Shown in pieces: positions 32,729 through 49,161 of a DNA stretch of 64,000 bases. This stretch comes from Gammaproteobacteria bacterium (GTDB lineage: Bacteria > Pseudomonadota > Gammaproteobacteria > GCA-002705445 > GCA-002716945). Below the pieces are notes generated by a model that worked only from the letters and a program-made list of their open reading frames with translations, had not been told where the DNA came from and made no database searches. Within the stretch, counting starts at the first letter, position 1. Each line of letters begins with the position of its first letter. The DNA lies in contig PBCF01000002.1 in assembly GCA_002716945.1 (NCBI GenBank), positions 1 to 64,000 on the forward strand, read 5' to 3'. Made by a program: the position numbers and the translations under genes.

Positions 32729-33166
32729 ATGTCAGTAAATAAAGTCATCCTTCTAGGCAGAGTTGGGAATGAGCCGGAAGTCAAATATATGCCAAGCGGT
32801 AATGCAGTTTTAAACTTATCAATAGCCACAAATCGTAAAATAAAAAATCAAGAATCTGATACGTGGGAAGATAAAACTGAATGGCATAGAGTGGTTTTTT
32901 TTAACAAACCTGCAGAAATTGTTTCTCAATATGTTAAAAAAGGCCAACAACTATATGTTGAAGGTAGATTGCAAACTAGAAAATGGCAAGATAAAGATGG
33001 AATTGAGAAATACTCCACCGATATAATCTCTGATAATTTTACATTTGTAGGTAGCAAGAGTGATAATCTTGAAGAACCTACAAAAACACAACAACCTCCA
33101 TCCAATGAAAAACCCGTTGAAGACCATTCTCCACAGCAATCTGATGATATGGACGTTCCATTTTAA
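32729..33166 (+). CDS. ssb: Single-stranded DNA-binding protein
   Basis: SSB coats single-stranded DNA and recruits replication and repair proteins. The 145-residue product has an OB fold in the first ~110 residues (NKVILLGRVGNEPEVKYMPSG, TEWHRVVFFNKPAEI, GQQLYVEGRLQTRKWQDKDG). A flexible Gln/Pro-rich linker follows, then the acidic tip DDMDVPF, the partner-binding tail. Its stop shares one base with the miaB start. Confidence 0.97.
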   Translation: MSVNKVILLGRVGNEPEVKYMPSGNAVLNLSIATNRKIKNQESDTWEDKTEWHRVVFFNKPAEIVSQYVKKGQQLYVEGRLQTRKWQDKDGIEKYSTDIISDNFTFVGSKSDNLEEPTKTQQPPSNEKPVEDHSPQQSDDMDVPF

Positions 33167-34485
33167 TGGCCGCAAAAAAATTTTTCATTAAAACTCAAGG
33201 ATGTCAGATGAATGAATATGATTCTGAAAAACTTGGAGATATTCTAAAAAATAATTTAGATTTTATTCCATCAGATGATCCCAAAATAGCTGACTTGTTA
33301 GTCTTAAATACATGCTCAATAAGAGAAAAAGCTCAGGAAAAGGTTTTTTCTGAACTTGGAAGATGGAAAAAAATTAAAGAAAAAAATCCAGACACACTTA
33401 TTGCCGTTGGTGGTTGTGTTGCTTCGCAAGAGGGCGAGCAAATAAAATTGCGATCACCTCAAGTAGATATTGTTTTTGGACCACAAACTATTCATAGATT
33501 GCCAAAAATGATTAAAGACATAAGGAGTCAAAAAAAAACTTCAGTAGACATTAGCTTTCCAGAAATTGAAAAGTTTGATTATATACCAAATTCTAAAAAA
33601 AAATTTCCTTCAGCATACGTTACCATTATGGAAGGTTGTAGTAAATATTGTACTTTTTGTGTAGTGCCATATACACGTGGAGAGGAAGTAAGCAGACGTC
33701 TTGATGATATAATATATGAAGTTAATCACTTAGCAGAACTGGGCACGAAAGAGATTATCCTGTTGGGTCAAAATGTTAATGCTTATAATTCATACACAAC
33801 GAATAATCAAAAAGCTGATTTTGCTACACTTGTGAGACATATATCATATATTGAAGGTATAAAGAGAATCAGACATACAACCTCTCATCCAATTGATTGC
33901 AGTGAAAGTTTTATCAAAGAACACACCAATCCAATATTGGCAGATAATTTACATTTACCTGTTCAATCAGGATCAGATGTTATCTTGGCAAAGATGAAGA
34001 GAAAACATTCTATTTTAGAATACAAAAATATTATCAAAAAAATACGAGCGTTGAGACCTGGTATCAGTATTACATCTGATTTTATTGTTGGATACCCAAA
34101 TGAAACTGATTATGATTTTGAGCAAACTATGAACCTTGTTAATGAGATCGAGTTTGATGATGCATATAGTTTCATATACAGTAAAAGACCAGGTACTCCT
34201 GCATCTTCTGAATATGATAATATTTCAGATCAGATCAAAAAAAACCGATTACATGTATTACAATCAAGAATTAAAGACTTATCATATAATTATCTAGAAA
34301 AAATGATAAACACCAATCAGCAAATATTGGTAGAAGGTTCTTCAGCAAGAAATAATCGAGAATTATTTGGAAGAACGTATAACAACAAAATTGTAAACTT
34401 TGATGGTTCAGCAGATTTAATAGGAAAAATGATTGATATAAAGATTACTGATTTAAGATCAAAGACATTAAGAGGCAAATTATAA
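33166..34485 (+). CDS. miaB: tRNA-2-methylthio-N6-dimethylallyladenosine synthase MiaB
   Basis: MiaB is a radical SAM enzyme that adds a methylthio group to i6A37 of tRNAs reading UNN codons. The 439-residue product has the UPF0004 domain with cysteines in KTQGCQMNEYDSEK, LNTCSIREKA and VGGCVASQEG. The radical SAM motif is EGCSKYCTFCVVPYTRG, and a C-terminal TRAM domain follows. Its TAA stop (34483-34485) overlaps the predicted phoH start, in the pattern ATAA where ATGA would be expected. Confidence 0.97.
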   Translation: MAAKKFFIKTQGCQMNEYDSEKLGDILKNNLDFIPSDDPKIADLLVLNTCSIREKAQEKVFSELGRWKKIKEKNPDTLIAVGGCVASQEGEQIKLRSPQVDIVFGPQTIHRLPKMIKDIRSQKKTSVDISFPEIEKFDYIPNSKKKFPSAYVTIMEGCSKYCTFCVVPYTRGEEVSRRLDDIIYEVNHLAELGTKEIILLGQNVNAYNSYTTNNQKADFATLVRHISYIEGIKRIRHTTSHPIDCSESFIKEHTNPILADNLHLPVQSGSDVILAKMKRKHSILEYKNIIKKIRALRPGISITSDFIVGYPNETDYDFEQTMNLVNEIEFDDAYSFIYSKRPGTPASSEYDNISDQIKKNRLHVLQSRIKDLSYNYLEKMINTNQQILVEGSSARNNRELFGRTYNNKIVNFDGSADLIGKMIDIKITDLRSKTLRGKL

Positions 34486-35450
34486 CTACGAAAATCACAC
34501 ATCAGAACATAATCCTACAACCACAAGATAATGAGAGGCTTGCGAATCTTTGTGGATTATTAGATGAAAACCTTAGACAAATTGAAACTCATATGAAAGT
34601 TGAAATATCTAATAGAGGAAATTCATTTCGAATCAAAGGTGATGAAAAAATTGTTCCATTAACATCACAACTTTTGGAAGAGCTTTATAAAATTTCTGAA
34701 TATGAGGAGCTTACTCCAAAGCAACTTCATATGTATATGAATAAACAAGCCCACAAAGATAAAAATTATATAGAAGAAAATATTGAAACTACAATTAGAT
34801 TAAAGAAAATAACAATCAAACCCAAATGTAAATCTCAAGAAGATTATATTCTTGGTATAAATAATAATGAGTTAACATTTGGAGTTGGATCTGCCGGAAC
34901 TGGTAAAACGTACTTAGCTGTTGCTTGTGCAGTTCATTATCTAGAAAATAATTTAGTAAAAAAAATATTTCTAGCACGACCAGCCATAGAGGCTGGTGAA
35001 AAATTGGGTTTTCTTCCTGGCGATCTAGCGGAAAAAGTCAATCCTTATCTACAGCCTATTTATGATGCATTGTATGAAATTATTGGTTTTGATAAAGTTA
35101 CAAAATTATTAGAGAAGAAGATTATTGAAATTGCACCGCTTGCCTATATGAGAGGCAGAACACTCAATGATGCATTTATTATATTAGATGAAGCTCAAAA
35201 CACTACTATTGCTCAAATGAAAATGTTTTTAACAAGAATTGGTTATGGATCAAAAACTGTTGTTACTGGCGATACAAGTCAAGTTGATTTACCTAGTGAC
35301 ATTAAGTCTGGATTAAAAGATGCGCTTGAATTCATACCAAAAATTAAAGGCGTACATACCACAAAATTTAAACCTCAAGATGTTATGAGACATCAAATTG
35401 TTAAATCTATTATCAGCCAATATGATAAAAGAAAAAAAGAATCTACTTAA
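34482..35450 (+). CDS. ybeZ: PhoH-like ATPase (YbeZ), predicted ATA start
   Basis: YbeZ is a cytoplasmic P-loop ATPase of the PhoH family, linked to YbeY and RNA metabolism. It has the Walker A GVGSAGTGKTYLA, RPAIEAGEKLGFLPGDL, APLAYMRGRTLNDAFIILDEAQN and TGDTSQVDLP. The first ATG in frame is at 34593, but the frame upstream encodes the family's conserved N-terminus (DNERLANLCGLLDENLRQIE). It has no stop back to 34449 and no ATG, GTG or TTG. An ATA at 34482 lies 6 bases after AGAGG (34471-34475), exactly where an ATGA stop/start overlap with miaB would sit. I therefore start the gene at 34482 (322 residues); the fallback is a 285-residue form from 34593. Downstream it overlaps ybeY by 29 bases. 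Confidence 0.85.
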   Translation: MTTKITHQNIILQPQDNERLANLCGLLDENLRQIETHMKVEISNRGNSFRIKGDEKIVPLTSQLLEELYKISEYEELTPKQLHMYMNKQAHKDKNYIEENIETTIRLKKITIKPKCKSQEDYILGINNNELTFGVGSAGTGKTYLAVACAVHYLENNLVKKIFLARPAIEAGEKLGFLPGDLAEKVNPYLQPIYDALYEIIGFDKVTKLLEKKIIEIAPLAYMRGRTLNDAFIILDEAQNTTIAQMKMFLTRIGYGSKTVVTGDTSQVDLPSDIKSGLKDALEFIPKIKGVHTTKFKPQDVMRHQIVKSIISQYDKRKKEST

Positions 35451-35892
35451 AATAAAAATAATTAGAAAAATTACGAGAGGATATATTCCAACAGATTATA
35501 AAATCTCAAAATGGGCAACATTATCATATATGAGAAAAAAAAAATCTTTGGTTACTATCAAATTAGCTGATAAAAAAGAAATGATGCAATTAAATCAATT
35601 ATATTCGAATAAAAAAATAGCATGTAATACTTTGTCTTTTTCATGTGATCAGACTCTAGGGATAGATTTACACGTATTAGGTGACATTGCTCTCTGTCCA
35701 TCTTTAGTGAATAAAGAATCTAAGATTTATAATAAAACCCCAGATTCACGTTGGGCTCATATGATAATACATTCAATGTTACACCTCCAAGGATATAAAC
35801 ATAATTCTGTAATCAACCGAAATAAAATGGAATCTATAGAAATAAAAATTATGAAAAAACTTGGTTATAAAAACCCATATTATGCAAACTGA
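35422..35892 (+). CDS. ybeY: Endoribonuclease YbeY (16S rRNA maturation)
   Basis: YbeY is a zinc-dependent endonuclease for 16S rRNA 3'-end maturation and ribosome quality control. The zinc site HSMLHLQGYKH (HxxxHxxxxxH) is near the C-terminus, and NTLSFSCDQ corresponds to the family's TDVLSFP stretch, although degenerate. The ATG at 35422 is preferred to a TTG at 35398. It lies inside phoH (29-base overlap), and its last 11 bases overlap corC. The product is 156 residues, and the sequence is quite diverged but the context (phoH-ybeY-corC-lnt) is decisive. Confidence 0.93.
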   Translation: MIKEKKNLLKIKIIRKITRGYIPTDYKISKWATLSYMRKKKSLVTIKLADKKEMMQLNQLYSNKKIACNTLSFSCDQTLGIDLHVLGDIALCPSLVNKESKIYNKTPDSRWAHMIIHSMLHLQGYKHNSVINRNKMESIEIKIMKKLGYKNPYYAN

Positions 35893-47915: not shown

Positions 47916-49161
47916 AAAGTATATTCAACAAGTATGCGTCAGAGCTTCTAATGCTTCCAGGACAAGTGCTATGAGGTCTACACAAGAAAAAAATAGATTA
48001 CTTGACTTAATAATTAAAAATATTACTAAAAATACTAAAAGTATACAAAGAAATAACTCTTTGGATATAAAAGCAGCTATTAAAAATAAAATACAAGAGG
48101 CCATGATTGATCGACTAACTTTAACTCCTAAGCGAATAAAGTCAATGTGCGACGGACTACAAGCAATCATAAAAATTCCTGATACATTATATAAATTAGT
48201 TAATTCTAAAAAACAAAAGAATGGAATCACTGTAAGTCAGATGAGAGTACCTTTGGGTGTAATTGCGATGATATACGAGTCAAGACCTAATGTTACTATA
48301 GATGCAGCTGGATTATGTTTAAAGTCTGGAAACAGCGTTATTCTAAGAGGTGGCTCAGAAGCAATTCACACCAACAAGATACTAATGAAAATTATCAAGA
48401 TGTCTTTACAAAAATCAAATTTTGATAACTACATGGTTCAATTGATTGAGACAACTGATAGAAATGCTGTAAATCATTTGCTTAAAATGGATAAGTGTAT
48501 TGATGTAATCATTCCTCGTGGCGGAAAAAGTCTTATCAAGAAAGTTTCGAAAGATTCAAAAATACCTGTAATTAAACATTTAGATGGTAATTGTCATGTT
48601 TATGTAGATAAGTATGCAAAAGAACAATTAGCAGAAAAAATTGTAATTAATTCTAAAACTCAAAGATATGGTGTATGTAATGCGATGGAAACACTTTTGA
48701 TCCACGAAAAATTTTCAAAAGATTCAACTCGTTCGATAGTCAATAAACTTCTTGAGATGGGTGTCGAACTAAGAGGTTGTAGAAAAACGAAAAAAATAAA
48801 CAATAAAATTAGAATAGCTACAGAAGAAGATTGGTTTACTGAATATTTAGCACCAATTCTTTCTGTAAAAATAGTATCAAATATAGATGAAGCAATTAAT
48901 CATATAGAAAAATATGGCTCTAAACACACGGAGGCAATCATTTCAGATAATGACAAACAAATTGATAAGTTTACAAAAATAGTTAATTCAAGCTCTGTAA
49001 TGTCAAATACATCGACTAGATTTGCTGATGGTTTTGAATACGGGTTGGGAGCAGAAATAGGAATTAGTACAGATAAATTACACGCACGAGGCCCGGTTGG
49101 TTTGGAAGGTTTAACAAATTTAAAATTTGTAGTGAGTAGTAAAGGGAAAATACGTAATTAA
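47896..49161 (+). CDS. proA: Gamma-glutamyl phosphate reductase
   Basis: ProA reduces gamma-glutamyl phosphate to glutamate semialdehyde in proline synthesis. The 421-residue product has MRVPLGVIAMIYESRPNVT, GNSVILRGGSEA, IPRGGKSLIKKV, the catalytic Cys261 in QRYGVCNAMET, and the end HARGPVGLEGLTNLKFV. It starts within holA and is one base from nadD. proB is not in the window. Confidence 0.97.
   Translation: MEQSSIKKYIQQVCVRASNASRTSAMRSTQEKNRLLDLIIKNITKNTKSIQRNNSLDIKAAIKNKIQEAMIDRLTLTPKRIKSMCDGLQAIIKIPDTLYKLVNSKKQKNGITVSQMRVPLGVIAMIYESRPNVTIDAAGLCLKSGNSVILRGGSEAIHTNKILMKIIKMSLQKSNFDNYMVQLIETTDRNAVNHLLKMDKCIDVIIPRGGKSLIKKVSKDSKIPVIKHLDGNCHVYVDKYAKEQLAEKIVINSKTQRYGVCNAMETLLIHEKFSKDSTRSIVNKLLEMGVELRGCRKTKKINNKIRIATEEDWFTEYLAPILSVKIVSNIDEAINHIEKYGSKHTEAIISDNDKQIDKFTKIVNSSSVMSNTSTRFADGFEYGLGAEIGISTDKLHARGPVGLEGLTNLKFVVSSKGKIRN

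Follow-up and report, generated by a model that had tools for sequence, protein, structure and literature searches.

The miaB-phoH-ybeY locus

The window, that is, the whole 64-kb stretch of DNA analysed, lies on contig C4 of a 1.09-Mb gammaproteobacterial genome (G000) and contains, in one orientation, the genes miaB, phoH (ybeZ) and ybeY, with the following features around the beginning of phoH:

33166-34485, plus strand: miaB, the upstream gene (TIGR01574, 562.9 bits), whose TAA stop overlaps the phoH ATA
34470-34475, plus strand: AAGAGG, a Shine-Dalgarno-like sequence 6 nt 5' of the ATA (anti-SD duplex energy, -5.8 kcal/mol)
34482-34484, plus strand: ATA, the proposed start codon of phoH, in a column that is TTG in 15 of 19 relatives
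34482-35450, plus strand: phoH/ybeZ, 322 codons plus stop (Pfam PhoH, PF02562)
34485-34592, plus strand: conserved N-terminal stretch of phoH (codon comparison, AlphaFold model), which would be gone if the first ATG were used
34593-34595, plus strand: first canonical in-frame start codon of phoH, a rejected alternative without Shine-Dalgarno sequence
35422-35892, plus strand: ybeY, operon partner of phoH (TIGR00043, 94.9 bits against a cut-off of 45)

The assignment of phoH to the PhoH/YbeZ family follows from the PF02562 match (297.5 bits, cut-off 27) and from the position of ybeY directly 3' of it; the co-occurrence of ybeZ and ybeY is highly conserved (PMC5101352). The likely start of ybeY is an ATG within the 3' end of phoH.

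The phoH reading frame is bounded by a TGA at 34449-34451, is open from 34452 to 35447 and ends with a TAA at 35448-35450. From 34452, its codons read TTT AAG ATC AAA GAC ATT AAG AGG CAA ATT (34479) ATA (34482) ACT ACG AAA ATC, and the earliest ATG, GTG or TTG is the ATG at 34593. The ATA at 34482-34484 is separated by six bases from AGAGG (34471-34475) and, together with the miaB stop at 34483-34485, forms the overlap ATAA. Reading the frame thus confirmed the original prediction, which had pointed to the open frame devoid of canonical start codons ahead of 34593 and to the ATA that follows AGAGG and overlaps the miaB stop. By itself, an ATAA junction is not evidence of an unusual start: it often arises by chance when a normal ATG follows TAA.

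The start column in relatives and other non-canonical starts

The relatives of G000 are uncultured Gammaproteobacteria known from metagenome-assembled genomes; the family compared comprises 25 genomes, and the order is represented in the set by this one family. The start column was taken to lie 45 nt ahead of the Asp codon in the DNxRL motif, and 19 relatives cover the site. The alignment with close relatives, which had been proposed as a check, places the ATA in this conserved column, with no ATG, GTG or TTG in G000, whereas the codon is TTG in 15 of the 19, including the sister of G000 in the tree (G017). In genus g2, three genomes (G001, G007 and G008) instead carry an ATG at a distance of two or three codons upstream. 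In G020 (L009), the column holds TTA and an ATG lies seven codons upstream, another shift of the start position. The stop/start overlap closest to that of G000 occurs in G014, where TTGA contains the TGA stop of miaB. Since the relatives have TTG in this column, the ancestral start was TTG and not ATG, so that the ATA of G000 is two substitutions away. The suggestion that a single base change turned a classical ATGA into ATAA is not borne out by this comparison; at most, ATG may have been an intermediate between TTG and ATA.

The ATA of phoH was observed in one genome, the only representative of its genus in the set. A scan of contigs for closer relatives yielded none beyond about 74% identity, and the viral contigs scanned contained no copy of this phoH. 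Conservation of the non-canonical start among the relatives, the mark of an infC-like start regulated by IF3, was not found, the relatives having TTG.

The original prediction treated phoH as a single odd gene; phoH itself was confirmed, but it is not alone. A survey for conserved protein sequence 5' of the first canonical start codon, covering 813 genes of contig C4 and 824 genes of G015, identified at least five genes with a non-canonical start in G000 (phoH, trxB, a secreted SNase-family nuclease, queD and infC); as the survey finds only genes in which the next canonical codon is distant, five of 813 is a lower bound. In trxB (C4:478147-479109; L255:14147-15109; TIGR01292, 404.7 bits), 69 codons lack a canonical start, and an ATC preceded by TCTGGAGAATATTTC stands at the position of an ATG that is common to all 22 relatives. 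The nuclease (C4:360196-360681, minus strand; L236) has 109 such codons, and its ATA and the stop codon of the gene before it form an ATAA overlap, the counterpart of which is ATGA in eight relatives; this upstream gene is, judging from its C-terminus, presumably homoserine O-acetyltransferase-like. Here, a single G-to-A change explains both the stop and the start, which is the very event that had been proposed for phoH.

The two remaining genes have non-canonical starts that are shared with other genomes. The start of queD (C4:608075-608455; L305; TIGR03367) is ATA in G000, and 13 relatives have either this codon or ATT, making 14 genomes of the family in total, with ATG in genus g2 and G020. 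The infC gene, which encodes IF3, has in G000 the start AGGAGAAGTATT ATA, conserved across the family: the ATA lies directly 3' of AGGAG in G000 and nearly all other members, and G016 has ATT. In most genomes, an ATG follows about eight codons further, but at some 30 nt from the Shine-Dalgarno sequence. Elsewhere in the family, nadD starts with ATT in G011, G013, G015 and G018 (L130, L136, L139 and L143) and with ATG in G000 (in the window, near 49160), and a neuB-like gene of G015 is also without a canonical start. The anti-SD energy is -5.8 kcal/mol or lower in four of the five G000 genes (phoH, infC, trxB and queD), and the fifth, the nuclease, has the stop overlap; the windows used for these energies lay too far downstream by 3 nt for infC, whose AGGAG was still inside, and by 1 nt for the nuclease. 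A codon-by-codon comparison at ATG columns returned mostly start shifts of one or two codons, without adding a firm case in G000.

Separately, an ftsI-like gene after ftsZ (C4:533874-535631, minus strand; L335) has 38 codons without a canonical start, as do its counterparts in several relatives; its candidate start, a CTG inside the end of ftsZ, was not counted because that codon is constrained by FtsZ coding.

Base error and alternative start sites

Could the true codon be ATG (or TTG), with the ATA arising from a base-call error or a strain variant? A single G at 34484 would restore ATGA, and a nonsense base that replaces a conserved Gly codon in a GyrB/ParE-like gene (C4:171468) points to some wrong or variant bases in the assembly. 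Among 251,384 codons, this was the only nonsense codon inside a gene, the other stops listed in the scan lying before gene starts or between genes. Should it be an error, then, with 5.5% of substitutions in the scanned codons creating stops, the error rate would be about 2.4e-5 per base, and about 0.05 start losses (upper bound, about 0.25) would be expected in 813 genes, against the three private losses in G000 (phoH, the nuclease and trxB), all to AUA or AUC. Moreover, two bases separate the ATA from the TTG of the relatives, the non-canonical starts of queD and infC recur in other genomes, and the window is free of N. Because the genome holds further non-canonical starts, sequencing error is unlikely as a general cause, an estimate that does not prove the phoH base itself; for phoH, we give an error or variant roughly one chance in eight or so, that is, we consider it improbable. 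The in-frame TGA at C4:171468 may be an error, a variant or real damage. The first 464 kb of the contig contain 35 N bases, every one of them within a stretch of 25 kb (C4:380776-405615).

We consider it distinctly less probable that phoH starts at the ATG at 34593, the first canonical codon, with a protein shorter by 37 residues. The Pfam PhoH ATPase domain begins later and would be intact, but the residues that would be lost are well conserved, as the original prediction had maintained: in the comparison with G014, codons 2-37 show 12 synonymous and 4 non-synonymous differences, proportionally fewer amino-acid changes than codons 38-100 (ungapped; 16 and 25, respectively). Ranked by conserved residues before the first canonical start among the 813 genes, those with homologues in G015, only trxB and the nuclease exceed phoH, so that the conservation of its N-terminus surpasses chance. 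Such conservation is inherited from the past and would still be seen if the loss were very recent. In an AlphaFold model of the protein (25 sequences; mean pLDDT, 84.7), the N-terminus is predicted to form a strand (5-11) and two helices (17-24 and 26-38) with a block pLDDT of 77-91, and a start at 34593 would delete this first strand and both helices of the N-terminal domain. The ATG at 34593 is also without a Shine-Dalgarno sequence, its anti-SD duplex energy being +0.4 kcal/mol as against -5.8 kcal/mol for AAGAGG at 6 nt from the ATA, a normal distance; over genes, the median is -1.5 kcal/mol, and 22% are at or below -5. Least credible of all is a start at another near-cognate codon: ATT 34479, which the original prediction had admitted beside the ATA, and ACG 34488 are both in frame and near the same Shine-Dalgarno sequence, but the former lies only 3 nt from it in a column that varies among relatives (ACT, ATT, AAT, ATC), and the latter 12 nt from it in a column that is GAA in most close relatives.

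Proposed initiation at AUA and its known parallels

The position of the ATA, the conservation, the overlap, the Shine-Dalgarno sequence and the other non-canonical starts are observed directly, and from these we infer that phoH is most probably translated from the AUA at 34482. The 30S subunit would be positioned by AAGAGG six bases upstream and by ribosomes terminating miaB at the overlapping UAA, reinitiation at short overlaps being an established process in E. coli (PMC10666635). AUA would then be read, with a third-position mismatch, by the usual initiator tRNA (anticodon CAU), inserting fMet and giving the full 322-residue PhoH, presumably at reduced yield. AUA took the place of the ancestral UUG on the branch leading to G000, and IF3 might discriminate against it as against the infC start of E. 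coli. A changed initiator tRNA was rejected as a cause, the anticodon (CAU) and the GGG/CCC stem being normal, and so was loss of RF2 driving TGA to TAA, stop usage being equal to that of G015 (61 TGA each). The IF3 arginines are kept except for R112K and R116K; these and Y75F are family-wide, and nothing is concluded from them. YbeZ is a binding partner of YbeY with a possible role in 16S maturation (PMC5101352), so that a link of initiation fidelity with ribosome maturation via phoH is conceivable.

More tentatively, start-codon selection may be relaxed throughout this family of marine, AT-rich Gammaproteobacteria with genomes of roughly 1 Mb, with AUA, AUU or AUC as the start codon in 0.6% or more of the conserved genes (infC, queD, phoH, trxB and the nuclease; nadD in relatives), some of these starts being conserved across species, and with the IF3 level possibly tuning all of them, phoH included. 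"Relaxed" is meant relative to published figures: in Listeria, less than 0.3% of core ORFs have rare or flexible starts (PMC13068326). Gene finders limited to ATG, GTG and TTG would truncate the conserved phoH, trxB and queD in the lineage of G000. If the proposed starts are real, they make up a naturally occurring collection of near-cognate starts, part conserved and part private, for studying the drift of start-codon discrimination in small AT-rich genomes and for asking whether a ribosome-biogenesis gene is tuned through a near-cognate start.

AUA starts as such are already known; what is new is phoH as the gene and the small lineage-wide repertoire. The infC gene of E. coli starts with AUU, and IF3 discriminates against this start. 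The infC starts (AUU in E. coli, AUA in S. aureus and also in G000) and that of phoH are alike in being near-cognate AUN codons with a Shine-Dalgarno sequence; phoH differs in that it is not known for such a start and in that its AUA is private to G000 among the genomes compared. According to the accessible portion of PMC13009471, S. aureus uses AUA starts in infC, ccpN and citZ, with reporters yielding about 10-30% of AUG, and its near-cognate starts carry extended Shine-Dalgarno sequences. There, ccpN and citZ share the AUA start with phoH, theirs being demonstrated by Ribo-Ret and reporters, but they are different genes of a different phylum, and that portion of the paper describes no overlapping upstream stop for them. 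In Listeria, where start strength decreases in the order ATG > ATA > ATT, rsbW, which overlaps rsbV, resembles phoH in having its start replaced (ATG to ATA or ATT) at an overlap with the upstream gene, the ATA being functional but weaker; the rsbW changes come from laboratory selection and rare strains, and the gene and the phylum are different (PMC13068326). Finally, Deinococcus deserti parallels G000 in having several genes with non-canonical starts in one genome (Baudet et al. 2010, as cited in the portion of PMC3305630 consulted); those starts were found by proteomics, those of G000 by conservation.
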